DNA of 64,000 bases from Chloroflexota bacterium (GTDB taxonomy: Bacteria; Chloroflexota; Dehalococcoidia; Bin125), in NCBI GenBank assembly GCA_009838915.1, contig VXQT01000002.1:62001-126000 (forward strand). Direction: 5' to 3'. Positions 1,535-35,639 of this stretch are shown here, piece after piece (within the stretch, counting starts at the first letter, position 1; the number at the start of each line of letters is the position of its first letter). Position numbers and translations under genes: made by a program. The notes under the pieces are model-generated. The model was not told the DNA's origin, did no database searches, and worked only from the letters and a program-made list of their open reading frames with translations.

Positions 1535-2782
1535 TCAGTTGACCAGCAGTGGCAACTCGTCGCCCGACTCAGCAACATGAGGGAGCAGCACGAGCGCTGC
1601 GTTCTGGCCGTGCGCGCCATAGGCGGCGGTGGCCGCGCCGACGATTCGGTCCTCGATCCGCTCTGGCACGAATCCCAGTTGGCAGGCGATGTCCAGCTCC
1701 CCCAGCGTGGCGTGCGGCGGAATCTTGCGTTGACTGACAATCTGCGCCGCCGCGACGGCCGAGAGCGCGCCCGACGCGCCGACGGTGTAACCCACGTTGG
1801 GCGACACCGTGGCGGCGTACATGTCCAGCGTGCGGCGCCCGAACGCGCGCTCAATGATGTCCGTCTCCCGCTCGTCGCCCGATCGGGAGCCGAGGCCGGC
1901 GGCGACGATCACGTCGATGTCCGAGGGCGAGACTTCACCGCCCAACATCGCCTCGCCGGTGGCGCGGCGTGCGATCTCCACGTCGGTCGGACCGAGTCCG
2001 TCGCCCATTGGACCGGCAGCCATCGCCTCGCCGCCGATCTCGGCGTAGATATGCACGCCGCGCTGGGTGGCGAGCTGGCGGTCCTCCAGCATCAGGGCCG
2101 CGGCTCCTTCGCCGAGGATCATGCCCGCTCGATTCGCGTCGAACGGCCGCTGCGCTCGAAGATCGTCCGTCGGATCGAGCAGTCCCAACGACTCATAGGC
2201 CTGCCAGACCTCGGTTCGGAGCGGCGCTTCGGCGCCGATTGCCAGCGCTGCTCTGACCACGCCGGAGCGGATCAGTTGCGCTGCCAGCACCACCGCAGCG
2301 AGCCCGGATGCGCCGCCCGCCGAGAGCGTGAACACGGGCCCCGCGACGTCGAGACCCAGGGAGGCGCCGGCGAGTCCGGATCCCAGCCTTGCCCATCCGT
2401 CGCCGCCCCCGGGATGCGCAATCCCCGTCACGGCGCCGACGACAAATGCGTTTTGCTGATTGAACTCGATGCGTGCATCGGACTGCGCCTGGATCGCGGC
2501 GTCGAGAGCGAGCTGTGATGCGCGATCCATGCGCGACAACAGCCACGGCGGCGCGCCCGACGGCCCTTCCCACGCATCGGGAATCTGGCCGGCTGCGGCG
2601 GCGCGTGGCGCCGAGAATGCGGTCAACTGCGAGGTGCAGACACGCCCTTCGCACAGCGCCGCCCAGAAGTCGGATGCCTGTAACCCTGCTGCCGTCACCG
2701 CGCCCAGGCCGCTGATCACCACGCGGCGGCGCTCACCGATCTCCTCGGTTCTGACGCCTCTGCCGATGTTCCCGCTGACCAT
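1535..2782 (-). CDS. FabF-like ketosynthase homologue lacking Cys-His-His (chain-length-factor-like)
   Basis: A 415-residue thiolase-fold protein collinear with beta-ketoacyl-ACP synthase II: RRVVISGLGAVTAAG near the N-terminus, DANRAGMILGEGAAAL in the middle (as in active KS) and the C-terminal GQNAALVL. All active-site residues are changed. The TACASG nucleophile loop reads AGGASG (Gly near 157 in place of Cys), NAHGT reads AAGLG (near 296), and KSxxGH reads SPNVGY (Tyr332 in place of His, Lys also lost). Such proteins cannot condense acyl chains on their own; known relatives are chain-length factors that pair with an active KS. A complete FabF is encoded at 38552-39829, which could be the partner, but that is inference. 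The gene diverges from hrcA across the CIRCE region. Confidence 0.85.
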   Translation of the reverse strand: MVSGNIGRGVRTEEIGERRRVVISGLGAVTAAGLQASDFWAALCEGRVCTSQLTAFSAPRAAAAGQIPDAWEGPSGAPPWLLSRMDRASQLALDAAIQAQSDARIEFNQQNAFVVGAVTGIAHPGGGDGWARLGSGLAGASLGLDVAGPVFTLSAGGASGLAAVVLAAQLIRSGVVRAALAIGAEAPLRTEVWQAYESLGLLDPTDDLRAQRPFDANRAGMILGEGAAALMLEDRQLATQRGVHIYAEIGGEAMAAGPMGDGLGPTDVEIARRATGEAMLGGEVSPSDIDVIVAAGLGSRSGDERETDIIERAFGRRTLDMYAATVSPNVGYTVGASGALSAVAAAQIVSQRKIPPHATLGELDIACQLGFVPERIEDRIVGAATAAYGAHGQNAALVLLPHVAESGDELPLLVN

Positions 2783-2848
2783 CTCGTGCCCTCTCGCGAT
2801 ACCGCGCGTGAGGTGTGCTACGACACCTTCAGGCGTGGTTGGATAGCT

Positions 2849-2877
2849 TTGCCGATTGCCGAAAACGCTGTTACGAT
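2849..2877 (+). promoter_or_regulatory. Sigma70-type promoter of the hrcA operon
   Basis: TTGCCG (2849-2854) and TACGAT (2872-2877) are separated by exactly 17 bp. The expected transcription start falls at about 2884, immediately before the CIRCE element, which is the usual position for HrcA control. The same TACGAT -10 box recurs at the rpoB promoter. Confidence 0.75.
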
Positions 2878-2884
2878 GACCGGG

Positions 2885-2911
2885 TTAGCACTCTCCTAGG
2901 TAGAGTGCTAA
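2885..2911. promoter_or_regulatory. CIRCE operator (HrcA binding site)
   Basis: A perfect match to the CIRCE consensus: arm TTAGCACTC (2885-2893), a 9-bp spacer, arm GAGTGCTAA (2903-2911). HrcA binds this inverted repeat and represses at normal temperature. It covers the start of the hrcA-grpE-dnaK transcript. It also lies in the region shared with the divergent ketosynthase-like gene, so that gene could be affected too. Confidence 0.97.
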
Positions 2912-2959
2912 CTCCAGCCTAGCGGAGCCTCAGGACTGAAACCCGGCACACATCGATCC

Positions 2960-4078
2960 ATGTCCTCCCCTATCTCATCTAGCGAACTGTCCCAGCGACG
3001 CGCCGGCATTTTGCAGTTGGTCGTTCAGGACTATATCGAGACCGCCACGCCGGTGGCCTCGCGGCATGTTGTCGAAAAGTACGCACTTCCGGCGTCGCCG
3101 GCGACGATTCGACACGAAATGCACGCGCTGGAAGAGGACGGTTACCTGACTCATCCGCACACGTCCGCCGGCCGCGTGCCGTCGAACCTGGGATACCGGC
3201 ACTTCGTCCAGTCGCTGATGGGCCATGCAGAGCTCGGCCAGGCCGAACAGGCGCAGGTGCGGCACCAGTTCTTCCAGGCGGCGCCTTCGGTCGACGAATG
3301 GGTGGAACTGGCCGCCAACGTGCTTGCCCGATCCCTGGGCTTGCTCGTAATCGTTGCGCCGCCCCACCCCGAGCAATTGCGAGTACGCCAGCTCGAACTG
3401 ATCTCGCTGAACGAACTGCTCGTGCTGATGATCGTCGTCGTCCAGGAGGCGCGCATGATTCGCCAGTTGATGCCGCTGCCTCAGCCGGTCGAAGTGGATG
3501 AGCTTGACGAACTCGCGGCCCGACTGTCCGGGACGTTGCGCGGACAGTCGGCCGATGAAGTTCGCGAGGCTGCGCGGGCCTCACTCGACTCGCCCGACAC
3601 GCATCCGGTCCAGCACTTCGTCCTCGACACCCTGGCTCAGGTCCTCCATCGCGATGCCAGGCGGGCCGGCGTACCGGCAATCGCCGGCCTGGGAGGCATG
3701 GTCTCGCAGCCCGAGTTTCAGCAAGAACCCGAGCGCTCGCTGGAACTGATCGAACTCGTCGATCAGCATGCCGCCGAAGACCTGGTTCCGCCCGAGGTGT
3801 TGGAGGACTCGATGCACGCAGGCGAAATGCACGTCCTGATCGGCGATGACTATCCCAACGAGTTGTTGCAGGACTGCTCGCTAGTGCTGGCGCCGTACGG
3901 CTCGTCGATCGGCGCGGCGCTGCGCGCCGAACAGGCGGTCGCCGGCCCCGAGATCCCCGGATACGTCGGCATCGTCGGCCCCACGCGGATGAACTATCCG
4001 CGCAGCATCGCCGCTGCCCGCTTCTACTCGGGACTGCTGCAGGAGATGATCGACGCGGTGTACGGAGCAGGCCGATGA
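2960..4078 (+). CDS. hrcA: Heat-inducible transcription repressor HrcA
   Basis: A 372-residue HrcA. The N-terminal winged helix (about residues 10-85) carries the family signature HTSAGRVPS followed by GYRHFV. The C-terminal part has the GAF-like dimer core and the typical ending GPTRMNYPRSIAA. HrcA represses class I heat-shock genes by binding CIRCE, and its folding depends on GroEL. A perfect CIRCE lies 49 bp before the start, so it is autoregulated. No strong Shine-Dalgarno is seen before the ATG. The stop overlaps the start of grpE (ATGA), showing tight coupling. Confidence 0.96.
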   Translation: MSSPISSSELSQRRAGILQLVVQDYIETATPVASRHVVEKYALPASPATIRHEMHALEEDGYLTHPHTSAGRVPSNLGYRHFVQSLMGHAELGQAEQAQVRHQFFQAAPSVDEWVELAANVLARSLGLLVIVAPPHPEQLRVRQLELISLNELLVLMIVVVQEARMIRQLMPLPQPVEVDELDELAARLSGTLRGQSADEVREAARASLDSPDTHPVQHFVLDTLAQVLHRDARRAGVPAIAGLGGMVSQPEFQQEPERSLELIELVDQHAAEDLVPPEVLEDSMHAGEMHVLIGDDYPNELLQDCSLVLAPYGSSIGAALRAEQAVAGPEIPGYVGIVGPTRMNYPRSIAAARFYSGLLQEMIDAVYGAGR

Positions 4079-4677
4079 TCGCAGACGAACAGGCCGTCGA
4101 GCAGCACGACGATGTGGTCGAGCCCGGCCTCGAGTCCGAACCAGCCTCCGAGCCGGAGAGCGAGTTTGACGCCTTGCGGCAGGAGTCGGCGCGCAATCTG
4201 GCCGGCTGGCAGCGCGCGCAGGCAGACTACGAAAACCTCAAGCGCCGCAGCGCCCAGGATGTCCGTGACCGGGTGCAGCAATCGCAGCGCGGCATCCTGC
4301 TCGACCTGCTCGACCTGGCCGACGACTTTGAGCGCGCGGAACGCGAAGCGCCCCAAGCGCCCGGTGACGACCCGGACCCCGATGATCCCTGGCGCAAGGG
4401 CGTCGAGCTGATCTCGCAGAAACTGCACGCTTTGCTGCTCAAGCAACAGGTGTCGCGGATCGAAACCGCGAATCACCCTTTCGATCCCGAACTCCACGAA
4501 GCCGTCGGCCAGTTGCCTGGGGGCCATAACGAGATCGTCGCCGTGCTGCGCACGGGCTACACCATCGGCCCGACCAGCAACCCGCGCGTGCTGCGCGCTA
4601 CGCAAGTCATGGTCGGCGACGGCTCGATCGAATCCTCCGAGCCGCAGGACCTCGCTGAAGACCTACCCACCGAATAG
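4075..4677 (+). CDS. grpE: Nucleotide exchange factor GrpE
   Basis: A 200-residue GrpE, the cytosolic exchange factor that releases ADP from DnaK. The acidic N-terminal tail (residues 1-35) is followed by the long helix with [12 protein letters not shown] and the C-terminal beta domain with the family signature [23 protein letters not shown] and [10 protein letters not shown]. It overlaps hrcA by 4 nt and ends 10 nt before dnaK. An acidic linker rich in Asp and Pro (near residues 97-106) sits between the helix parts. Confidence 0.96.
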
Positions 4678-4687
4678 GAGACTTCAT

Positions 4688-6580
4688 ATGCCCGGACGAG
4701 TCATTGGCATCGACCTTGGCACGACCAACTCCGCCGTCGCCGTGATGGAAGGCGGAGAACCGACCGTGATCCCCAACGCCGAAGGCAACCGCACCACGCC
4801 CTCGGTCGTTGCGTTGACCAAGACCGGCGAACGGATCGTCGGCACCGCTGCCAAGCGCCAGGCGGTGACCAACCCCGAGGACACGCTGTTCTCAGTCAAG
4901 CGGCTGATGGGCCGTCGCTTTGATGATCCCAACGTGCAGGGCGCGGTGGGGCGCCTGCCTTACACGGTCGACGCGGCCGAGAATCGCGACGCTCGGGTAA
5001 CCATGGGCGGCAACCCGTACTCGCCGCCCGAGATCGCCGCCATGGTCCTGCAAAAGCTCAAGGCCGACGCTGAAGCCTACCTGGGCGAGACCGTCTCCGA
5101 AGCGGTAATCACGGTGCCCGCCTACTTCGACGACTCGCAGCGCAACGCGACCAAGGACGCAGGCCGGATCGCCGGACTGAACGTGCTGCGAATCATCAAC
5201 GAGCCGACCGCCGCCTCGCTCGCCTACGGGCTGGAGAAGACGGAAGACCACTACATCGCCGTTTACGACCTGGGCGGCGGCACTTTCGACATCTCCATCC
5301 TCGAACTTGGCGAAGGCACCTTCCAGGTCCGCTCTACCAACGGAAACACGTTCCTCGGCGGCGACGACTTCGACCAGCGTCTGATGGACTACCTCGTTGA
5401 CGCCTTCCGCAAGGAGCAAGCGATTGACCTCTCGCAGGACCGCATGGCGCTGCAGCGGCTCAAGGAAGCCGCCGAGCGCGCCAAGGTAGAGCTCTCGACG
5501 ACGCAGTCGACCGAAATCAACTTGCCGTACATCACGGCCGACGCCTCAGGCCCCAAGCACTTCACCCACACACTGACCCGCGCCCAGCTTGAGCAGCTTG
5601 TGCTCGACCTGGTCGACAGCACCCTCGAACCCTGCCGCAACGCGCTCGACGACGCCGGCATCTCGCGCGATCAGGTGGACGAGGTCGTGCTCGTCGGCGG
5701 GCAGACGCGGATGCCCCTGGTTCAGCAGAAAGTCGAGCAGTTCTTCGGCAAAGAGCCGCACCGCGGCGTCAATCCGGACGAGGTCGTCGCGCTCGGCGCG
5801 GCGATCCAGGCCGGTGTGCTGCGCGGCGAGGTCAAGGATGTGCTGCTGCTCGATGTCACCCCGCTGACCCTGGGCATCGAGACCCTGGGCGGCGTCTCGA
5901 CCCCGCTGATCCCGCGCAACACGACGATTCCCACTTCCAAGTCGCAGGTCTTCTCGACCGCCGCCGACAACCAGTCGCAGGTCGAGATTCACGTGCTCCA
6001 GGGCGAGCGCGAGATGGCCGCCGGCAACAAGCCACTGGGCAAGTTCATCCTCGACGGCATCCTGCCCGCTCCGCGCGGCATGCCCCAGATCGAGGTCACC
6101 TTCGACATCGACGCCAACGGCATCCTCAATGTCGGCGCACAGGACAAGGGCACCGGCAAGGAGCAGCGGATCACGATCCAGGGCTCCTCCGGTCTGTCCG
6201 AGGATGAGATCGCCTCGATGCAGCGAGACGCCGAGGAACACGCCGAGGAGGACAAGCGACAGCGCGAACTGGTCGAGGTACGCAACCGCGCCGAGACGAC
6301 CGCCTACGAAGCGGAGAAGATTCTCAGCGATCAGGAAGACAAGCTCGACGAGGAACTGAAAGTCGAGATGCAAGGCAAGATCGAGGCGCTGCGCGGCGCG
6401 CTTGAGTCCGAGGACTCCGCGCCGATTCAGTCAGCCCTCGACGACCTCAATACGACCCTGATGAAGGTCGGCGAGCGGATCTACGGCCAGCAGGAACCCG
6501 CCGGAGCCACCGCCGACGCCGCAGGCGCCGCACCACCGCCCGACGACGACACCGTCGAAGGCGAGTTCCGCGAGGTCTGA
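4688..6580 (+). CDS. dnaK: Molecular chaperone DnaK (Hsp70)
   Basis: A 630-residue Hsp70 of normal length. The ATPase domain starts [10 protein letters not shown], with [17 protein letters not shown], the linker-side GGQTRMP, and the conserved [14 protein letters not shown] leading into the substrate-binding domain. The lid is followed by a short Ala/Gly/Pro-rich tail ending in EFREV. The Shine-Dalgarno AGGAG lies 8 bp before the ATG. Third gene of the CIRCE-controlled operon. dnaJ does not follow directly: a 1.25-kb stretch with small minus-strand genes intervenes, and a strong hairpin follows dnaK. Confidence 0.98.
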
Positions 6581-6591
6581 GGCGGAAACAA

Positions 6592-6621
6592 ACACGCCCC
6601 GCTCCCTTGAGCGGGGCGTGT
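6592..6621. terminator. Hairpin terminator between convergent dnaK and a small membrane gene
   Basis: A perfect 13-bp stem, ACACGCCCCGCTC (6592-6604) with GAGCGGGGCGTGT (6609-6621), around a 4-nt loop. On the plus strand no T-run follows. On the minus strand the stem is followed by TTGTTTCC, so it looks like a better Rho-independent terminator for the minus-strand gene at 6646. It may act in both directions. Confidence 0.8.
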
Positions 6622-6645
6622 CACAGGGACTGTTCGCTTGCGCAA

Positions 6646-6882
6646 TCAGCGCTTCGGCCGCCAGATGTGCGGCTGCCATAGTCCCGAGAGCCACAACAGA
6701 CCTGCCCCAACAGGCAGCGTGGCGAAGTAGGTGCCAACGAACTCAAGCGCGGAGTAGTCTGCGAAGGCGACAAGCAATCCTGGGACGATCACCGCGCCCA
6801 AGCAAAGCCCGAGAGACCACGACTTCGAGCACGCTCGCAGAATGTCAACTAGTGAATGGGACATGTGACGAGCTTTTCCCAT
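6646..6882 (-). CDS. Small membrane protein with two predicted membrane segments
   Basis: A 78-residue protein (72 if it starts at the second ATG, MSHSLV). After a short N-terminal helix with Arg and Lys it has two hydrophobic segments, about residues 22-40 and 48-69, and a basic tail (WRPKR). No family recognised. It is the last gene of a three-gene minus-strand mini-island that lies between dnaK and dnaJ. A similar two-segment protein ends the second mini-island (27092-27271). Base composition is visibly less GC-rich than in the flanking chaperone genes. A role as accessory or immunity-type membrane partner of the secreted proteins is only a guess. Confidence 0.6.
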   Translation of the reverse strand: MGKARHMSHSLVDILRACSKSWSLGLCLGAVIVPGLLVAFADYSALEFVGTYFATLPVGAGLLWLSGLWQPHIWRPKR

Positions 6883-6911
6883 GCTGGCAGTGCGTCACGG
6901 CTAGCAAGAGT

Positions 6912-7283
6912 CTAGCAACTCCCAGGTGAATTCACACATGTTTCGCCGTATGACTCATAGGCGTCAGCAACGAAACTGACAGCGTCCTGGACGATTGCGG
7001 CCGTTGTACTCGGATTGGTGACCGCGGCCACGATCAGGCCGCTGACCACCCCGGCAATAATCGCCACAACCAATGGCCCGATCTCGGGATTGCGATCGAG
7101 AAGGGTTCCCTGAACGCGACCGAACTCAACGGCGGGTTGCTCGTCGAGTTCGGCAACGGTTTCCACCGGTGAGTCCGAGTTGGACATCGCGCTGGCTGCG
7201 CACGGAAACGCAGCAACTGCCGTGAGCAACAGCAGAACTGTTATGGCCAGTACCAGCCTGTTCGATCCTTGTAGTGCGAGCAT
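6912..7283 (-). CDS. Small exported protein with signal peptide and one membrane segment
   Basis: A 123-residue protein. Residues 1-32 form a signal peptide (hydrophobic core LAITVLLLLTAVAAF, cleavage likely after ASA). A polar region is followed by a Gly/Ala/Val-rich segment (about 69-90) that could span the membrane, and a C-terminus with two cysteines (116 and 123, the last residue). No family recognised. It starts 2 nt after the stop of the upstream gene, and its AGGAGG Shine-Dalgarno lies inside that gene, which shows a real coupled operon. Second gene of the dnaK-dnaJ mini-island. Confidence 0.65.
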   Translation of the reverse strand: MLALQGSNRLVLAITVLLLLTAVAAFPCAASAMSNSDSPVETVAELDEQPAVEFGRVQGTLLDRNPEIGPLVVAIIAGVVSGLIVAAVTNPSTTAAIVQDAVSFVADAYESYGETCVNSPGSC

Positions 7284-7285
7284 TC

Positions 7286-7672
7286 TCAGTTTCCTCCTAT
7301 CGAGGCTTCTGTCGCGTCAAGTCCCGCTCTTGGAGGCCTGTCAGCAGGGCAGTGGTGAGCGACCTGGTGAAGCATCGCTGCAACCATCGAGATCACGTGA
7401 GGATCGCTTGTCTGGTGCAACACAACGCTGATGAGTCCATCTGTGATTTGCCTTGCCAGCGCTGCGCAGCGCCAGTCCGGGTACAGCTGAACAACTCCTC
7501 CGTCGTTGTGCGGACCAGGATCCTCGTTCGCGCACTGCAGAATCGGCGCCTCGCAGAACGGGGGGTAGGTGTCGGCTGAGACCGTGGCGACCGCGACGAG
7601 TGCCGCCGCCAGCGCGAAGCAGATTGCGACTCCGCGAACCGCGTGCGGCTGGTCTCGGCCAGGTATGCTCAT
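7286..7672 (-). CDS. Small secreted cysteine-containing protein
   Basis: A 128-residue protein with a clear signal peptide (charged start with Arg, then a core around residues 15-30, cleavage likely near VSA-DT at 33). The mature part holds four cysteines (40, 47, 69, 108), the first two spaced as FCEAPILQC. No family recognised. It opens the minus-strand mini-island. The 70 bp upstream share ordered sequence blocks with the region upstream of the gene at 27378-27821, which also encodes a secreted protein with four cysteines. The start ATG has GAAAGG about 8 bp upstream. Confidence 0.65.
   Translation of the reverse strand: MSIPGRDQPHAVRGVAICFALAAALVAVATVSADTYPPFCEAPILQCANEDPGPHNDGGVVQLYPDWRCAALARQITDGLISVVLHQTSDPHVISMVAAMLHQVAHHCPADRPPRAGLDATEASIGGN
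7293..7298 (-). promoter_or_regulatory. Ribosome binding site inside the upstream gene
   Basis: AGGAGG on the minus strand, 9 bp before the ATG at 7283. It lies within the last codons of the 7286-7672 gene and so decides the start of the 6912-7283 gene and couples the two. Confidence 0.8.
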
Positions 7673-7710
7673 GGAGCGCCCCTTTCATTAGCTCTGCAAT
7701 GGCAACTGCG

Positions 7711-7739
7711 AAGTCAGGCAAAGGGCGCCCTCGTGTCAA
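7711..7739 (-). promoter_or_regulatory. Likely promoter of the first mini-island
   Basis: On the minus strand TTGACA (7734-7739) is followed after 17 bp by TGACTT (7711-7716), a weak -10. The spacer contains the palindrome AGGGCGCCCT (7722-7731). The blocks GTTGAC, GCCT, CTTC, GTTGC, GAGCTA and GAAAGG between here and the ATG recur in the same order and nearly the same spacing upstream of the second mini-island (27886-27957). Confidence 0.5.
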
Positions 7740-7832
7740 CACTTGGTGGTTCGTTATGACAACTCAAACGCTGTGCTGCTGTGATCCGGCCGACGCAGAC
7801 TGTTAAGTCGGGCGAGAGATACCCTGTTCGCA

Positions 7833-8957
7833 ATGGCTCAATCCGACGACTTCTATGAGATTCTCGGCCTCTCGCGGGAGGCTTCGCAGGACGACATCCG
7901 GCGTTCGTTCCGTAAGTTGGCGATGGAGCATCACCCCGACCGCGTGACCGACCCGGCGGAGAAGGAGGCCTCGGAGGCCAAGTTCAAGCGGATCGCCGCG
8001 GCCTACGAGGTGCTCTCCGATCCGGAGAAGCGGACCAAGTACGACCAGTACGGCTCGGCCGGCGCGTTCGCCCAGGGCACAGGCTTCGAGGGCTTCGACT
8101 TCGGCGGCTTCGGCGACATCTTCGACGCCTTCTTCGGCGGACGCCGCGCCGCCGGACCGATTCGCGGCGGCGACCTGCGCATCCAGATCGAGCTCGACTT
8201 CGAGGAAGCGGTCTTTGGCTGCGAGGAAGAGATCCGCGCGTCGCGGCTTGAGCATTGCACGATCTGCGGTGGCTCGGGCGGTGAACCCGGTACCCAGCGT
8301 GTCGCTTGCGATCTCTGCGGTGGCTCGGGTGAGGTGCGTCGCACGCAGAGCAGCGTCTTCGGCCGCTTCGTCAACGTCGCACCCTGCGAACCCTGCGAGG
8401 GTGAGGGCACCGTAATCGAGCATCCCTGCACTGCTTGCGGAGGAATCGGTCGAGAGCAGCGGAACCGACGACTCAAAGTCAAGATCCCCGCTGGCGTCAC
8501 AGACGGCGCGCAGATGCGGCTCTCGGGTGAGGGCGACGCCGGCTTGCGCGGTGGACCGGCCGGCAACCTCTACGTCGATATCCACGTCCGCGCCCACGAG
8601 ACGTTCATCCGCGACGGCAACGATCTGATCCTGCCGCTGCACCTGAACATCGCCCAGGCGACATTGGGCGCAGAGGTCCACATCCCCGGCATCGACGGTC
8701 ACGCCCAGCCGCTCAATGTGCCGGCAGGCACCCAGCACGGTCACGAGTTCCGTCTGCGTGGACAAGGGGTGCCGCACCTCCGGGGCCGCGGCCGCGGCGA
8801 CCTGCGCGTCCACGTCGTGGTCGAGATTCCGAGCAAGCTGAGCGGCAAGCAGCGCGAGTTGTTCGAACAGTTGGCGGAGGTACTCGACGTGCCGACTTCT
8901 GTCGGCGGAGACGACAACGGCGTCTTCTCGCGTATTCGTGGAGCCTTCAACAATTAG
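7833..8957 (+). CDS. dnaJ: Chaperone DnaJ (Hsp40)
   Basis: A 374-residue type I J-protein that stimulates the DnaK ATPase and hands over substrates. The J domain has HPD in MEHHPDR (about residues 33-36). A Gly/Phe-rich linker with GFEGFDFGGFGD follows, then the zinc domain with four CxxCxGxG-type repeats (CTICGGSG, CDLCGGSG, CEPCEGEG, CTACGGIG) and the C-terminal substrate domains. Unlike the common order it does not directly follow dnaK. No CIRCE is seen upstream, so its control may differ from hrcA-grpE-dnaK. Its end overlaps prmA by 20 nt. Confidence 0.97.
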   Translation: MAQSDDFYEILGLSREASQDDIRRSFRKLAMEHHPDRVTDPAEKEASEAKFKRIAAAYEVLSDPEKRTKYDQYGSAGAFAQGTGFEGFDFGGFGDIFDAFFGGRRAAGPIRGGDLRIQIELDFEEAVFGCEEEIRASRLEHCTICGGSGGEPGTQRVACDLCGGSGEVRRTQSSVFGRFVNVAPCEPCEGEGTVIEHPCTACGGIGREQRNRRLKVKIPAGVTDGAQMRLSGEGDAGLRGGPAGNLYVDIHVRAHETFIRDGNDLILPLHLNIAQATLGAEVHIPGIDGHAQPLNVPAGTQHGHEFRLRGQGVPHLRGRGRGDLRVHVVVEIPSKLSGKQRELFEQLAEVLDVPTSVGGDDNGVFSRIRGAFNN

Positions 8958-25022: not shown

Positions 25023-26000
25023 ATGAAGTTCGGAATCCCGATCGGCAACTTCGGCACTGCCGGCAAGTTCGGCGGAATCAACGATGTGATCGATATCGCC
25101 GAGCGCGCGGAACTGCTCGGCTATGACTCGGTCTGGGTGCATGACCACATCTTCATGCCTGCGACGATCAAGTCCCGCTATCCCTACAACGACTCCGGCG
25201 TGGCCGGATTCGCTTACCACCAGGACATCATGGACCCGCTGGCGGTGATGTCGGCGGTGGCGATCCGCACCTCGGAGATCCAGATCGGCACCTCGGTGCT
25301 GATCATTCCCTACCGCGACCCGCTCTACCAGGCGCAGGCGATCGCGACCATTGATCAGCTATCGGAGGGTCGGGTGCTGCTCGGCATCGGCGTCGGCTGG
25401 ATGGAGGAGGAGTTTGCGGCGCTGGGACTGGAGGGCGAGCCCTTCACCCGCCGCGGCGCGATGACCGACGAGTGGATGTCGATCGCGATCAGCGCCTGGA
25501 CCCACGGCGTCAACCGCGAACCGATCTCGCACGAAGGCCATTTCCGCCAGTTCGACGATCTCGGCGGGATGTCCGCCTGCCACCAACAGCCGCACGTGCC
25601 GATCTGGGTCGGCGGCAAGGGGCGGATCGCCGCCCGCCGCGTGGCCCGTTACGGCAGCGGCTACCACACGATCACTTCGACCCCCGATCAGATCCGCGAC
25701 GAGCTCGCGATCGTCGAGGAAGAGATGGACCAGGCCGGACGCGAGATGGAGGAGCTGGAGGTGTCGATGCTCGGACCGCTCGTGCTGCTCGACGGCGACA
25801 CCGAAGCAGTGCGCGGCTTCCCCGCCGTGGTCGGCGGCTCCCGCGACGAGATAGTCGATGCGCTCGGCCGGTACGAGGAAGCCGGCCTCGACCACGCCCT
25901 CACCATCCCCGCCTACCGCACCCCCAACTGGGACGTGCCTCCCGACCAACAGATGCAGGCCATGGCCGAGTTGGCGGAGATCGTGGAGGAGATCCGATGA
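25023..26000 (+). CDS. LLM-class (F420-type) oxidoreductase, paralogue of the previous gene
   Basis: A 325-residue luciferase-like monooxygenase. Shared with its neighbour: MKFGIPIGN, GYDSVWVHDHIF, KSRYPYND, VLIIPYRDP and GIGVGWMEEEFAALGL. Two ATGs lie side by side (25020 and 25023); the spacing to GAGGAG favours the second. It probably arose by tandem duplication, followed by divergence. The downstream BKACE gene begins 49 nt later and may belong to the same operon. Confidence 0.92.
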   Translation: MKFGIPIGNFGTAGKFGGINDVIDIAERAELLGYDSVWVHDHIFMPATIKSRYPYNDSGVAGFAYHQDIMDPLAVMSAVAIRTSEIQIGTSVLIIPYRDPLYQAQAIATIDQLSEGRVLLGIGVGWMEEEFAALGLEGEPFTRRGAMTDEWMSIAISAWTHGVNREPISHEGHFRQFDDLGGMSACHQQPHVPIWVGGKGRIAARRVARYGSGYHTITSTPDQIRDELAIVEEEMDQAGREMEELEVSMLGPLVLLDGDTEAVRGFPAVVGGSRDEIVDALGRYEEAGLDHALTIPAYRTPNWDVPPDQQMQAMAELAEIVEEIR

Positions 26001-26048
26001 GCCGTGTACACCAGGTCCACTCCGGCTGAACAGAACAGGAGCTGAGCC

Positions 26049-26966
26049 ATGTCCAAGCCAGTCGTGATTGAATCTGCGATCAATGGCGGGACGCCGAAGT
26101 CCCGCAATCCCAATTCGCCCCGATCGGTGGAGGAAATCGCCGCCGACGCCGTTCGCGCCGTCGATGCCGGGGCGGCCATCGTCCACAATCACAACGATGA
26201 CCAGGTCATCGTGCCGGGCGGCCGGACCACGGCCGGCTGGCACAATCCGCAGCCCTACATCGACGCCTGGCGCGAGGTGCTGTCGCAACGTCCCGACACG
26301 ATTCTCTATCCGACGATGGGCTCGGGCGGCCCCGACTCCGAGATTGCCGTGCGCTACTCGCACCTGCCGGCGCTGAACGAGGCGGGTGTGCTAGGACAGG
26401 GCCTGATTGACCCGGGCTGCGTCGGACTCGGTCCCGCCGACGAGCACGGGCTGCCGGCGCCGACTGACAACGTCTACATCAACACCTACCGCGACGCCCG
26501 CTACATGTTCGAGACCTGCCAGCGCATGGGCCGCGGCGCATCGATCTCGATCTTCGAGCCGGGCTTCCTCCGCGTCGTGCTGGCCTATCACGCGCAGGGG
26601 CTGGTGCCGCAGGGTTCGCTGGTCAAGCTCTATTTCGGCGGCATGGAACGCGGACCGCTGGGCTTCGGCATGTTTCCCACCGAGCCGTGTCTGAACGCTT
26701 ATCTCTCGATGCTCGAAGGCACCGGACTCGAGTGGTCGGTCGCGATCCTCGGCGGCGACTGCATCGGCTCCGGCTTTGCTCGCCTTGCTCTGGAAAAGGG
26801 CGGACACCTGCGCGTCGGCCTCGAGGATTTCTATCAGGGCGACCGCACGCCGACCAACACCGAGCTGGTGGAAGAGGCCGTCAGCCTCTGCGACGAGGTC
26901 GGCCGCCCGGTGGCCTCGCCGTCGGAGGCGCGCACGCTGCTCGGTCTGCCACCCTCAAAGGCATGA
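26049..26966 (+). CDS. BKACE-family beta-keto acid cleavage enzyme (DUF849)
   Basis: A 305-residue TIM-barrel enzyme of the family of 3-keto-5-aminohexanoate cleavage enzyme. Zn ligands His46 and His48 are in VHNHND; further family marks are IFEPGF, KLYFGG and GGHLRVGLED. Known members condense a beta-keto acid with acetyl-CoA to give acetoacetate and a CoA ester, so they feed unusual amino- or keto-acids into CoA metabolism. CAGGAG precedes the ATG. With the two LLM oxidoreductases it suggests a small catabolic module. The specific keto acid cannot be read from sequence. Confidence 0.92.
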   Translation: MSKPVVIESAINGGTPKSRNPNSPRSVEEIAADAVRAVDAGAAIVHNHNDDQVIVPGGRTTAGWHNPQPYIDAWREVLSQRPDTILYPTMGSGGPDSEIAVRYSHLPALNEAGVLGQGLIDPGCVGLGPADEHGLPAPTDNVYINTYRDARYMFETCQRMGRGASISIFEPGFLRVVLAYHAQGLVPQGSLVKLYFGGMERGPLGFGMFPTEPCLNAYLSMLEGTGLEWSVAILGGDCIGSGFARLALEKGGHLRVGLEDFYQGDRTPTNTELVEEAVSLCDEVGRPVASPSEARTLLGLPPSKA

Positions 26967-27091
26967 GAACTGCGGACTCTGCGGCTGGCGGTACCTGTGT
27001 CAGCTTTTCAGAAGAAGATGGAGCAGATGCAGTCATCAGCTGGAAACCGCAAGAGCCGACTTTTTCTCTGGCCATTGCCGAATTGATGCGG

Positions 27092-27271
27092 TTAGTGTCG
27101 CAGCCGGTTTCGTTGCAAGAAGAGTATCAGCGGCAAGAACATGAGCCCGATCACGAGAGCTGACACGACACTCATCTCGAACCAAACGCATGCGATAACA
27201 AGCATTGCGGCCAAGACGGCGAAGTTCAGCAGTAGCCTCCACAGCGCCTGTCGAATGTGTAGTCTCTCCAC
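27092..27271 (-). CDS. Very small membrane protein with two membrane segments
   Basis: A 59-residue ORF starting with GTG, with the Shine-Dalgarno TAGGAG 4 nt upstream. The protein has a basic amphipathic start (ERLHIRQALWR), two hydrophobic stretches (about 14-30 and 34-52) and a basic end (QRNRLRH). No family recognised. It lies 106 bp downstream of a secreted-protein gene, with a hairpin between them. It resembles in layout the 78-residue protein that closes the first mini-island (6646-6882): basic start, two segments, an LP pair in the second segment, basic end. Confidence 0.5.
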   Translation of the reverse strand: MERLHIRQALWRLLLNFAVLAAMLVIACVWFEMSVVSALVIGLMFLPLILFLQRNRLRH

Positions 27272-27275
27272 AAAG

Positions 27276-27281
27276 CTCCTA
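27276..27281 (-). promoter_or_regulatory. Ribosome binding site for the 59-residue membrane protein
   Basis: TAGGAG on the minus strand, 4 nt before GTG at 27271. It supports an ORF that is otherwise too short to call with ease. Confidence 0.6.
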
Positions 27282-27330
27282 CTTCCGCTCAGGCGAGCCT
27301 TAGGCCGATCCGCTCACTTTTCAGGTAGGT

Positions 27331-27358
27331 CGGAGGCGAGGCCGTAGCCCCGCCTCCG
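27331..27358. terminator. Hairpin downstream of the secreted-protein gene
   Basis: Arms CGGAGGCGAGGC (27331-27342) and GCCCCGCCTCCG (27347-27358), 11 of 12 pairs, with a 4-nt loop. It starts 20 bp beyond the stop of the 27378-27821 gene. No T-run follows on either strand. It may stop or attenuate transcription into the small gene at 27092-27271. Confidence 0.55.
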
Positions 27359-27377
27359 AACGCCAGCCCTTCCGGAC

Positions 27378-27821
27378 TCAGGGGCACGTTCGAGAGTTCA
27401 GGATCTGGCCTGCCACTCGGCAAGAGTAATCGATCTTGTCAGGAACGGAGGCGATTCCCTCTACGATCTCCTCAACTGGTTCGATTACCTCCTCTTCAAC
27501 GAACGTTTCGATTGCGTCATCAACGCCCGCTTGATCCAGGACGACATTGGTCACCACGCCGACACCGGGTCCGAGATACGGTGCGATTGGCGCAGCCGGG
27601 GTCAACGCTGTAACCGCAGTTACTGCGGCTCCGACTCCAGTGGATGCGACCCCGATCGCGACATCAGCGGTAATCTCCGCCGTTTTCTCGGGGGCCAGAT
27701 CCAACTCAGGTGGCGGAGGTGGGGGAGGAACGCAGATCGAAGACGGACAGATGGTGACTGAGATGGCGCTTGCAGTGTCTGCGCCTACGCCCAACGCGAT
27801 CACGGCTACGATGGCAAACAT
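27378..27821 (-). CDS. Secreted four-cysteine protein, possible frame break at the start
   Basis: A 147-residue ORF from the only in-frame ATG. It begins directly in a signal-peptide core (FAIVAVIALGVGADTASA). The mature part has ICPSSIC, seven prolines, an Ala/Val/Gly-rich middle (about 50-98), an acidic stretch and a C-terminal Cys pair (134, 146). No family recognised. The best-placed start, ATG 27888 with AAGGAG upstream, is in another frame. In the signal-peptide frame the preceding codons read RVQRHRVLSSLG, a normal basic N-region. A single indel between about 27850 and 27880 would join the two. Either the gene is damaged, or the base call is wrong, or it starts internally. Confidence 0.55.
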   Translation of the reverse strand: MFAIVAVIALGVGADTASAISVTICPSSICVPPPPPPPELDLAPEKTAEITADVAIGVASTGVGAAVTAVTALTPAAPIAPYLGPGVGVVTNVVLDQAGVDDAIETFVEEEVIEPVEEIVEGIASVPDKIDYSCRVAGQILNSRTCP

Positions 27822-27926
27822 GCCGAGGCTTGATAGGACTCGATGCCTCTGTACCCGTACTGCACGAGTGTGAGATATTGTCTGTCATGCGGGGCTCCTT
27901 TCGCCTAGCTCACTGGTGCAACAGGG

Positions 27927-27956
27927 AAGCGAGGCGCGGGGAGCCTTCTCAGTCAA
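27927..27956 (-). promoter_or_regulatory. Likely promoter of the second mini-island
   Basis: On the minus strand TTGACT (27951-27956) is followed after 18 bp by TCGCTT (27927-27932). The order GTTGAC, GCCT, CTTC, GTTGC, GAGCTA, GAAAGG, ATG spans 72 bp here and 71 bp in the first mini-island, suggesting common origin and shared control. Confidence 0.5.
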
Positions 27957-28000
27957 CGGATTCGTAAGCGCTGACATAACGAGGTAAGACGGAGAGAGCC

Positions 28001-28504
28001 ATGTACGAGATGAGCACCGACACCCTGCGGGACATGCTCGAACAGCCGACGATTGCAACCCTCGCGACCGTGCGGCGCGACGGCAGCCCCTACACGATCC
28101 CGCTCTGGTACCTGTGGGAGGGCGACGTGCCGGACGACGTCGACCCGACGCGGAATCCGCCGACCGGCCATGCCTGGTTCCTGGGCGGCGAGACGAGCAC
28201 CTGGGTTCGGCACCTGCAGCAGGATCCGCGCATGTCACTCTGCATCGATGTCGAAGGACCGCCGGCCCGACATGTCGGCATCGACGGGACAGTGGAGGTG
28301 CTGACCGCCGAGGACGCCGACCCGTGGCCAATCATGCGACGGCTGGTGGAGAAGTACGTCGGCCGCGGCGACCCGGCCAACGAGCAGGCGGTTGAGCAGT
28401 ACATGGAGTCGACACGGTCGATGACTCCGATGCTCTTCAAGGTGACGCCGACCCGCTGGCGCGCAATCGATCTGTCGCAGTTCGAGCCGGGGCAGGACGT
28501 GTAG
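28001..28504 (+). CDS. PNPOx/F420-type flavin-binding split-barrel protein
   Basis: A 167-residue protein of the pyridoxamine 5'-phosphate oxidase-like split barrel. Key marks: LATVRRDGSPYTIPLWYLWEG near the start, GHAWFLG, DPRMSLCIDVEGPP, and the shared EKYVGRGDPAN. Members use FMN or F420; the family includes F420-dependent reductases, and the LLM genes nearby fit an F420 user. GAGAGAG precedes the ATG. Possible starts at 28001 or 28010. The next gene is a paralogue. Confidence 0.85.
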   Translation: MYEMSTDTLRDMLEQPTIATLATVRRDGSPYTIPLWYLWEGDVPDDVDPTRNPPTGHAWFLGGETSTWVRHLQQDPRMSLCIDVEGPPARHVGIDGTVEVLTAEDADPWPIMRRLVEKYVGRGDPANEQAVEQYMESTRSMTPMLFKVTPTRWRAIDLSQFEPGQDV

Positions 28505-28560
28505 GTCGAGCGACTGACGGGGGAGCGCTTACCCTGCGTAAACGCGGGAAGGAGCGTGAT

Positions 28561-29097
28561 ATGCCCCGGATGCAAGCGGATGCGTGGCGGGAGTTCATGG
28601 AGCAGCCGCACAGCGGCGTGCTGGCGACGCTCAGGCAGGACGGGCGGCCCTATACGATCCCGCTCTGGTTCCTCTGGGAGGGCGAAATTGACGACGACGC
28701 GCACCCGCTGCGCAATCCGCCGCGCGGACACCTCTGGCTCACCGGCACGCTGAGCCGGGTCTGGTGCCGGCAACTGATGAACGATCCGCGCATGTCCTAC
28801 TGCATCGAGAACTCGGGTCCGCCCGCGCAGCACGTGGAGACCGACGGCATGGCGGAGGCAATGACCCTGCCCGACTTCGACATCTGGCCGATCTCCCGCA
28901 AGCTGGCCGAGAAGTACGTCGGTCGCGGCGATCCGGCCAACGACGACGCGGTCGACGCCTTCTTCGCCAACATGCAGACCGAGCCGCGAATGCTGTTCCG
29001 CGTGACGCCGCAGGTCTGGCGGGCGATTGACCTGACGGTCTATCGAGGCAAGCGAGCCGATCGGGAGTTCCAGGCGCAGCAGAGCTCCGCGGAGTAG
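28561..29097 (+). CDS. PNPOx/F420-type split-barrel protein, tandem paralogue
   Basis: A 178-residue paralogue of the gene at 28001. It shares DGRPYTIPLWFLWEG, NPPRGHLWLTG, DPRMSYCIENSGPPA, HVETDG, EKYVGRGDPAN and a TPQVWRAIDL end. Compared with its neighbour it has a longer, charged C-terminus. GGAG lies 7 nt before the ATG. The pair is a local duplication and may work as a heterodimer, since split-barrel enzymes are dimers with the cofactor at the interface; that is inference. Confidence 0.85.
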   Translation: MPRMQADAWREFMEQPHSGVLATLRQDGRPYTIPLWFLWEGEIDDDAHPLRNPPRGHLWLTGTLSRVWCRQLMNDPRMSYCIENSGPPAQHVETDGMAEAMTLPDFDIWPISRKLAEKYVGRGDPANDDAVDAFFANMQTEPRMLFRVTPQVWRAIDLTVYRGKRADREFQAQQSSAE

Positions 29098-33475: not shown

Positions 33476-33896
33476 CGAGGCACTCGAGGTCCAGGACGCT
33501 GAAGAAGAGGCCGAAGCGGCAGATGCGCTGCAGTTGCTGTTCGAGGGGCACGTCGATGTGATGCTGCCGCCCGAAGAGATCGAAGAGTTTCACGACTTCA
33601 TCCGCGAAGAGGCGCTGATGCGCCGCCGCTTCGCGGTCTCCTTCCGACTCGAATGCCGTTGTCTCGCCTGGATCGGCTACACGCTGGCCAACATCGTCAC
33701 GCATGAGGACGGGATCGAGTTCAAAGCCAACCCGATGCAGACTTACGTTCCCGATCACGAACCGGATGTCGAGCATCCCGAGGGAGCGACCGAGGACCCG
33801 CCGGAACAGTTCCTCGACTGGCCGATCTGGCCGCTCGAGATCTACCAGGACGAACTCGAAGAGGATGAGCTCGAGGAAGAAGAGGCTGAGGAGTGA
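33468..33896 (+). CDS. Acidic protein of unknown function
   Basis: A 142-residue, strongly acidic protein ending in a Glu/Asp tail. The middle holds RRRFAVSFRLECRCLAWIGYTL. I chose ATG 33468 because GGAGG lies 6 nt before it; ATG 33456 is also open. No family recognised. The stop overlaps the GTG of the HAD gene (GTGA), so the two are coupled. Confidence 0.65.
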   Translation: MSDEALEVQDAEEEAEAADALQLLFEGHVDVMLPPEEIEEFHDFIREEALMRRRFAVSFRLECRCLAWIGYTLANIVTHEDGIEFKANPMQTYVPDHEPDVEHPEGATEDPPEQFLDWPIWPLEIYQDELEEDELEEEEAEE

Positions 33897-34615
33897 GCGC
33901 CGCCAATGGACGCTTTGCCGCCGTGTTCTTCGACCTCGACGGCACCCTGGTCAGCGAACGGACAGGCGTCCGCGAGGCACGCACCTCCGTCGGCGCCCGG
34001 CTGATCGAACTTGGCATCTACCGCAAGCCCGCTTCTGCCTTCGCCGACACCATCGAGATGGTGATCGGCGGAATCATGGAAGACAACGATTGGCAGTGGC
34101 CGCTCTGGCTGCACGCCGAGGAGTGGATGAAACGCAGCCTGGCAGTCGAAGAGATCGAGGTCAGCGAGGACGAGTTTGCGGAGTTGAACCGCGTCTACCG
34201 CGACGAGCGCAGCGACCGGGCAGAGGCAATCCACGGTTGGCCGGAGGCCCTCGCGGCGGCGCGCGGCCACGGTCCTGTCGGATTGATTACAAACTTCAAC
34301 GACGGCCCGATGCAGCGCCAGAAGATCCGCGGGGCAGGACTCGACGGACAGTTCGACGGCGTCTACATCTCCGGCGAAGTCGGCGTCTGGAAGCCGGAAC
34401 CGGGCATCTTCCTGCATGCCGCAGAGGACCTGGGCGTCGATCCTCGTGAGTGCGTGCACATCGGCAACAACATTCAGTCCGATATCGAAGGGGCGCTGTC
34501 TGCGGGGATGACGGCCGTGCTGGTCGAAGAGGACGACCGGCCGCGTCCCGACGGCCTCAACGGCGAGGTCGCCTGGTGCGAAGACCTGCTCGAGGTCGCG
34601 AGCTGGCTGTCCTGA
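33893..34615 (+). CDS. HAD-superfamily hydrolase
   Basis: A 240-residue HAD phosphatase-like protein. Motif I FFDLDGTLV (nucleophile Asp14, general acid Asp16), motif II ITNF, motif III KPEPGIF and motif IV HIGNNIQSDIEGA are in order. A helical cap (about 18-100) makes it a C1-cap member, as in phosphoglycolate phosphatase or haloacid dehalogenase types. The substrate is not predictable. GTG start overlaps the preceding stop. Confidence 0.92.
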   Translation: MSAANGRFAAVFFDLDGTLVSERTGVREARTSVGARLIELGIYRKPASAFADTIEMVIGGIMEDNDWQWPLWLHAEEWMKRSLAVEEIEVSEDEFAELNRVYRDERSDRAEAIHGWPEALAAARGHGPVGLITNFNDGPMQRQKIRGAGLDGQFDGVYISGEVGVWKPEPGIFLHAAEDLGVDPRECVHIGNNIQSDIEGALSAGMTAVLVEEDDRPRPDGLNGEVAWCEDLLEVASWLS

Positions 34616-34646
34616 TCGCGTCTGCAGACTGTTGCCGAGCCGACCG

Positions 34647-35639
34647 CTACTTCCTCGCGATGGCCCGCTTCGCGGCCGCGACCACCGACTCCGCCGTCAG
34701 TCCGTACTCCTCAAGTAGCGCCGTCCAGGTCCCCGACTGACCGAATCGGTCCTCGATTCCGACCTGCTCCATCGGCACCGGGCAATGCCGCGCCAGCGTG
34801 CGCGCCACGGCCGAACCGAGGCCGCCGATCACGTTGTGCTCCTCCGCGCAGACGATTGCGCCCGTCTCCTCGGCGGCCTGGATCACCTCCGCCTCGTCGA
34901 GTGGTTTGATCGTGGCCATGTTGAGGACTCGAGCGCCGATGCCTGCCTGCGCGAGCAAGTCGGCCGCCCGAATCGTGGGTTCCAGCATCAGCCCGCAGGC
35001 AATCAGCGTGACATCGTCTTCCAGGTGGATCACCTCGGCTCGCCCAAGCTCGAAGCTGCGCTGGTGTTTCGGCTCCACGCTTGGGTCCAACAGATGCACA
35101 ATGGGCAGCTTCGGCCGACCCAGGCGGATGTACCAGGGTTCGTCGTCCTCGGCGGCGCGGCGGATCGCCTGATCGGCTTCGACCGCGTCCGAGGGCACGA
35201 CCACGTTCATGCCTGGCAGCGAGGTCATCAGCGCGAGGTCTTCGATCGCCTGAGCCGAGGCGCCGTCCTCGCCGACCGAGATGCCGCCGTGCGAGGCGAC
35301 GAGTTTGACGTTCATCCGCTGCTGCGCGATCTGGACGCGGATCTGGTCGAAGCAGTGGCCGGGCATGAACACGGCAAACGAGGCCGCGTAGACGGTCTTG
35401 CCGGTCGAGGCCAGTCCCGCCGCAATGCTGATCATGTTTTGCTCCGCCGCGCCGACTGTGAACCAGCGGTCGGGATGCGACGCGGCCAACTTGTTCCCGC
35501 CGGTCGAGGCGGAGAGGTCGGCGTCCAGGGCGACGATGTCGTAGCCGGCGTCGGCCAGCTTGACCAGCGCCGGACCGTAGGCTTCGCGCGTTGCGGCAGG
35601 GGGAGGCTCCGGGACCGCAGACCAACCGCTGGCAGTCAT
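34647..35639 (-). CDS. Transketolase, C-terminal subunit
   Basis: A 330-residue pyrimidine-binding plus C-terminal domain half of a split transketolase. Marks: DADLSAST, FTVGAAEQNMISIAAG with the catalytic Glu, VASHGGISVGEDGASAQAIED, and the C-terminal AEEHNVIGGLG. The ATG at 35639 overlaps the stop of the N-terminal subunit gene (ATGA). The two halves make one enzyme moving two-carbon units in the pentose phosphate pathway. Split transketolases are common in archaea and several bacterial lineages. Confidence 0.92.
   Translation of the reverse strand: MTASGWSAVPEPPPAATREAYGPALVKLADAGYDIVALDADLSASTGGNKLAASHPDRWFTVGAAEQNMISIAAGLASTGKTVYAASFAVFMPGHCFDQIRVQIAQQRMNVKLVASHGGISVGEDGASAQAIEDLALMTSLPGMNVVVPSDAVEADQAIRRAAEDDEPWYIRLGRPKLPIVHLLDPSVEPKHQRSFELGRAEVIHLEDDVTLIACGLMLEPTIRAADLLAQAGIGARVLNMATIKPLDEAEVIQAAEETGAIVCAEEHNVIGGLGSAVARTLARHCPVPMEQVGIEDRFGQSGTWTALLEEYGLTAESVVAAAKRAIARK

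Follow-up and report, generated by a model that had tools for sequence, protein, structure and literature searches.

Between dnaK and dnaJ of a Chloroflexota genome lies a 1252-nt insert that is likely one occupant of a small, insulated accessory-gene slot, filled repeatedly within one Chloroflexota genus. The insert was found in the window, a 64-kb stretch of DNA on contig C33 (genome size 2.87 Mb), and contains three open reading frames (ORFs), P0001, P0002 and P0003, all on the minus strand. In four further congeners the gap between dnaK and dnaJ is taken up by cargo unrelated to this insert, which in three of them is a fused toxin–antitoxin-like gene; this adds to what a previous sequence-only reading of this DNA had described.

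The dnaK–dnaJ junction in the window and in related genomes

The genes around the insert run in the order ketoacyl synthase (minus strand), hrcA, grpE, dnaK, insert, dnaJ, prmA, SDR (minus strand) and RNA methyltransferase. The sequence-only reading had proposed that an island of small genes splits dnaK from dnaJ. This is borne out by the 1252 nt separating the dnaK stop (6580) from the dnaJ ATG (7833), by the minus-strand ORFs in this interval and by Pfam confirmation of both flanks. The features of the region, in window coordinates, are:

4688–6580, plus strand: dnaK, left flank (PF00012, E 7.9e-263)
6592–6621, no strand assigned: perfect, G+C-rich hairpin (fold −31.9 / −32.9 kcal/mol, z −4.4 / −4.7)
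6646–6882, minus strand: P0003, 78 aa, doubtful gene with one clear hydrophobic segment
6912–7283, minus strand: P0002, 123 aa, putative signal peptide, transmembrane segment, Cys 116 and Cys 123 in the tail
7286–7672, minus strand: P0001, 128 aa, putative signal peptide, four Cys in the mature part
7820–7825, plus strand: TACCCT, −10-like box of dnaJ, beginning 13 nt 5′ of the ATG, leaderless-like
7833–8957, plus strand: dnaJ, right flank (PF01556, PF00226, PF00684)

The junction was compared in 15 genomes of the genus, including the window genome (G000), and in five more from other genera of the family; the contig of one congener (G011) is broken at the junction, so 14 genus genomes were assessable. 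A DnaJ scan yielded the named congeners, which are metagenome-derived Chloroflexota genomes that carry the label Dehalococcoidia or Chloroflexi, among them bin125, IRC2, RHO and PNGco bins. Apart from bin125, these bins derive from sponges and corals, and the group corresponds to Bin125 of GTDB. PMC5649159 gives the sponge Aplysina aerophoba as the source of bin125.

Within the genus, the linker between the two genes measures 84–98 nt in 8 of the 14 genomes, 166 nt in one (G002) and 638–1255 nt in five (638 nt in G010, 981 nt in G001, 1007 nt in G006, 1244 nt in G004 and 1255 nt in the window, with the stop codon counted), and in the five genomes from other genera it measures 57–123 nt. Adjacency of dnaK and dnaJ (<130 nt), which had been assumed to be the normal state, was therefore found in 8/14 genus and 5/5 other family genomes, and the insert-free junction that was to be sought in relatives is present in the eight compact linkers of the genus. 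Such a distribution, in which the junction is empty in some relatives and holds unrelated cargo in others (8 compact, 1 intermediate and 5 filled), corresponds to the pattern by which an accessory-gene hotspot is recognized. As in integration hotspots with interchangeable accessory genes, a fixed core-gene junction is variably empty or filled; the differences are that the cargo spans only 0.6–1.25 kb, that no integrase or tRNA site was seen and that the site lies inside a chaperone operon. When the gap sequences were read, no integrase, direct repeat, transposon end or tRNA was apparent. Literature searches listed no paper that deals with a dnaK–dnaJ insertion slot.

The slot is notable but not unique in the window. 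In the block from the ketoacyl synthase to the transglutaminase gene, the dnaK–dnaJ gap is the sole one exceeding 600 nt in any genome. Over the whole window, a crude set of 52 genes compared with 12 relatives, several of them partial, revealed five other gaps that in one genome or more are longer than 600 nt (ahead of the ketoacyl synthase gene and near 26.0, 28.5, 34.6 and 45.7 kb), some of which reflect genes missed by the gene finder, and the slot is thus one of several variable linkers. Gaps within window positions 26000–28600 differ by 1–4 kb among relatives, which likely marks another variable region. At 33893–34647 the gap is 31 nt here and 666–675 nt in five of seven relatives; a conserved gene has probably been lost here or was missed by the crude gene finder. 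G001 has a second filled linker (L051, ∼2166–3125), this one separating the lactamase-B-like gene from the ketoacyl synthase gene; it contains a 164-aa ORF with LIDTGADRTLIAP, which we take to be a retropepsin-like motif, and a 96-aa ORF alongside.

Cargo of the filled linkers

The five filled linkers hold at least three unrelated types of cargo. In G010 the cargo is an ORF of 140 aa that has three hydrophobic segments; in G001 and G006 it is a gene in which Pfam recognizes fused NTP_transf_2 and HepT-like domains (2/2 proteins scanned); and in G004 it is a 79%-identical relative of this fusion gene together with a 108-aa membrane ORF. Comparison of the gaps by blastn gave no match between any two of the three cargoes (window, G010 and fusion group). 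The main cargo ORFs are antisense to dnaK–dnaJ in all five filled linkers, a count that leans on our choice of the longest plausible ORF per stretch as the main one, and the uniform orientation represents at most three to five events.

In a tree of seven concatenated proteins, the window genome groups with G011 (support 100), followed by G010 (69) and G008 (78), and G004 groups with G006 (100), while the placement of G001 and G002 is weak (32–35). The filled genomes do not form one clade in this tree, in which the deep supports are weak. The window genome and its neighbour G010 have unrelated cargo, and the junction of G008 is empty. Taken together, the tree and the cargo types indicate that at least three types of cargo entered the junction, and the fusion gene shared by G001, G004 and G006 might go back to a single old insertion.

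The fusion proteins (gaps L018, L021 and L020 of G001, G004 and G006) all retain the GSX10DXD and RX4HXY motifs. Full-length matches to them at E 1e-10 were found in only these three of 20 genomes of the order, always in the dnaK–dnaJ slot; at the same threshold, the two halves were found as neighbouring matches at other loci in G019 and G007, and the HepT part alone was matched in G011 and G008. The window genome has no fusion gene above E 1e-10, either in the slot or elsewhere. With both domains and both motifs, the cargo of the relatives resembles the MntA–HepT (MNT–HEPN, type VII) system as described in PMC7641770, but it is one fused chain and not two genes. Occasional fusions of HEPN-M to MNT are reported in PMC3710099, which also states that catalytic residues are typically absent from HEPN domains in fusions; in the cargo described here the catalytic motifs are kept. 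In G006, GTCATTCCAGCTTGTCTGGAATCCCGCCCG-type repeat units adjoin the MntA–HepT-like gene (positions 1–210 of gap L020).

Since, apart from the window, four slots are filled and three of these contain the fused nucleotidyltransferase–HEPN gene with both motifs, the insert of the window could be an analogous defence or addiction cassette of an unrecognized family. Sponge symbionts are also reported to be enriched in toxin–antitoxin and restriction systems (PMC5649159). However, P0001–P0003 gave no match at E 10 to a described system in PADLOC-DB, export would be unusual for intracellular toxin–antitoxin pairs, and an argument from location alone is weak. We consider this explanation unlikely, and favour an accessory-gene slot whose occupants differ between genomes.

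Coding potential and ancestry of the insert ORFs

P0001 and P0002 are probably real genes, given their strong ribosome sites, signal-peptide-like starts, best codon frame of six and spacing of 2 nt. P0001 is preceded by the ribosome site GAAAGGGG at ∼7679–7686, and the site of P0002, AGGAGG (∼7293–7298), lies within the 3′ end of P0001. The corresponding duplex energies are −11.9 and −12.5 kcal/mol, beyond the 5% tail of random 20-mers (−10.1 kcal/mol). In codon log-odds the proposed frame ranks first of the six for both P0001 (z 3.2) and P0002 (z 3.6). P0003 starts 29 nt downstream of P0002 and has no ribosome site (duplex energy −3.8 or −4.2 kcal/mol), and its codon score (z 2.7) is exceeded by those of reverse-strand frames. 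These two properties make it doubtful as a gene, and it is the weakest coding candidate of the three ORFs. Of the three coupled genes that had been proposed, the coupling of P0001 to P0002 holds and that of P0003 does not.

The composition of the ORFs differs from that of 13 neighbouring genes, both in GC content (0.58–0.63 versus 0.65–0.70), as had been noticed in the sequence-only reading, and in GC3 (0.63–0.69 versus 0.77–0.88). The codon z-scores of the same 13 known genes are 9.5–21.1, far above those of P0001 and P0002. With weak codon scores and low GC3, P0001 and P0002 resemble recently acquired or young genes. The same weak scores (z 2.7–3.6 versus at least 9.5 in known genes), the lack of a homologue of P0001 and P0002 in any search and the outcome of mononucleotide shuffles, 66 of 2000 of which gave at least three non-overlapping ORFs of at least 78 aa on one strand, would also be expected if P0001 and P0002 were not genes but chance open frames within a drifting 1.2-kb spacer. 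An ORF cover of at least 990 nt was reached in 10 of 2000 such shuffles. We regard chance frames as improbable, as best-of-six frames, two strong ribosome sites, two putative signal peptides with fitting cleavage sites and 2-nt coupling are jointly unlikely by chance.

Signal peptides were called from hydropathy plus a cleavage motif and not with a dedicated predictor. P0001 has a putative signal peptide with a V-S-A cleavage site before residue 34 and five Cys residues, one in the signal peptide (Cys 18) and four in the mature part (40, 47, 69 and 108), in line with the signal peptide and four Cys attributed to it previously. P0002, which had been described as having a signal peptide, a membrane segment and a C-terminal Cys, indeed has a putative signal peptide (A-S-A cleavage site before residue 33), a transmembrane segment at ∼71–89 and Cys residues at positions 28, 116 and 123, the last being the C-terminal one. 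Of the two membrane segments attributed to P0003, one exceeds the hydropathy cut-off and the other falls short (at most 1.35). Single-sequence AlphaFold models, of which two were obtained, including one of P0001, were poor (pLDDT 50.7 and 56.4). The low-confidence model of P0001 has helices at 67–87 and 91–107 with Cys 69 and Cys 108 at their flanks, so a disulfide between these two residues could close a helical hairpin.

The statement that none of the three proteins has a recognizable family was upheld: P0001–P0003 gave no match over the cut-off in Pfam, NCBIfam and PHROG. There were also no matches to plasmid and phage records (P0001 and P0002) or to phage records (P0003), and no relative was found in scans of genome contigs and viral contigs (P0001) or viral contigs (P0002). 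Against PDB sequences, the best match of P0001 was at E 0.62 and P0002 had none, and Rfam gave no match over 2700–8000. A resemblance to DUF732 suspected in the tail of P0001 was dropped, as the profile searches listed no such match.

When 20 genomes of the order were searched, neither P0001 nor P0003 was found outside its own genome. P0002 gave two weak matches in the 15 genus genomes (33–36% identity, E 1e-4), which lie within frames of 448–460 aa and were taken as low-complexity matches, and it matched no other genome among 400 of the phylum (own included). In the same 400 genomes, P0001 matched seven others. Six of these come from one genus and cover 43 residues at ∼47–49% identity; at the three of these six loci that were translated (L065, L066 and L068) the matches lie in one shared frame, which by eye we take to encode a sigma-factor-like protein. 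The seventh (L070) has 37% identity in an 839-aa frame. All seven were counted as chance: P0001 is an exported protein, and a value of 3e-5 for each genome comes to ∼0.013 when 400 are searched. At the DNA level, the insert matched, in 20 genomes, only 106 nt directly 5′ of dnaJ in G011 and a chance-level stretch of 46 nt in G005. By sequence, P0001–P0003 thus look like species-restricted acquired orphans.

The sequence-only reading had guessed at a bacteriocin/immunity or signalling function, for which we found no support. In the bacteriocin case, P0001 would be Sec-exported, with P0002 and P0003 as membrane immunity or receptor partners, and a signal peptide, a small Cys-containing mature protein, membrane partners in one unit and a species-restricted distribution would fit. 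Still, no bacteriocin or immunity family was matched in Pfam, NCBIfam and PHROGs, and there is no relative in which diversifying selection could be seen. The ten Pfam-scanned neighbours (lactamase-B-like, ketoacyl synthase, HrcA, GrpE, DnaJ, PrmA, SDR, RNA methyltransferase, M23 peptidase and MoxR-type AAA) include no dedicated transporter, peptidase or modification enzyme, although Sec export would need none. We judge a bacteriocin to be quite improbable. A functional role of the insert within the chaperone operon, which only the position of the insert would suggest, is hardly tenable, as it is contradicted by the comparative data: the genes of the insert are missing from the other 14 genus genomes, antisense and exported.

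Borders of the slot and a possible mode of use

At the dnaJ end, a TANNNT hexamer is present within the last 60 nt 5′ of dnaJ in all 15 genus genomes. It starts 12–13 nt before the ATG in the window, G010, G004, G006, G002 and G011, 40–48 nt before it in all eight compact linkers and 59 nt before it in G001; the frequency of such a box at 12–13 nt in shuffled 62-mers is 0.012. TANNNT ∼12 bp upstream is a mark of leaderless genes according to PMC3160421, and dnaJ of the window and of the five other genomes shares this spacing, a likeness known here from sequence alone. The leaderless-like box occurs in four of the five filled linkers and, over the 14 assessable genomes, in 5/6 enlarged versus 0/8 compact linkers (Fisher p 0.003 with kinship ignored, so that the link between box and filling is at best two coincident changes). 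Inspection by eye of other family genomes gave TACCCT ∼43 nt 5′ of dnaJ in G015 and TACGAT ∼14 nt 5′ of it in G018 and G019.

At the dnaK end, the hairpin at 6592–6621 lies just past the dnaK stop, with TTGTTT coming after it on the minus strand. From its sequence it reads as a terminator of the minus-strand cassette, with a possible second role in ending dnaK transcripts; it was not among the calls of a consensus scanner. A related hairpin (82% over 28 nt, E 0.003) occurs in the 166-nt linker of G002, which has no cargo, so the hairpin of the window need not have arrived with the cargo. The possibility that it is an imported dispersed element was rejected, as it is single-copy in the window genome.

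In the slot as we picture it, dnaJ would have its own promoter and no need of readthrough from dnaK, and inserts may be tolerated at the junction because of this independence. The cargo would lie antisense, diverging from the dnaJ promoter at one end and, in the window genome, closed by the hairpin terminator at the dnaK end. P0001 would be a soluble, Sec-exported orphan and P0002 a membrane-anchored, Sec-exported one translated in concert with it. Because the slot holds a toxin–antitoxin-like gene in three relatives, the pair might, by analogy, confer a conditional, strain-specific envelope trait, for example in competition or defence, a possibility that we put forward with considerable doubt. 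It is improbable that the linker is a swappable docking site for antisense conflict cargo in which a leaderless switch of dnaJ uncouples DnaJ from DnaK and P0001–P0002 form a new exported conflict family.

P0001–P0003 remain orphans without a family. In summary, a heat-shock operon appears to tolerate repeated insertion at one junction, for which the promoter of dnaJ would be a simple and testable reason, and the slot likely marks a place where an uncultured symbiont genus keeps interchangeable genes.
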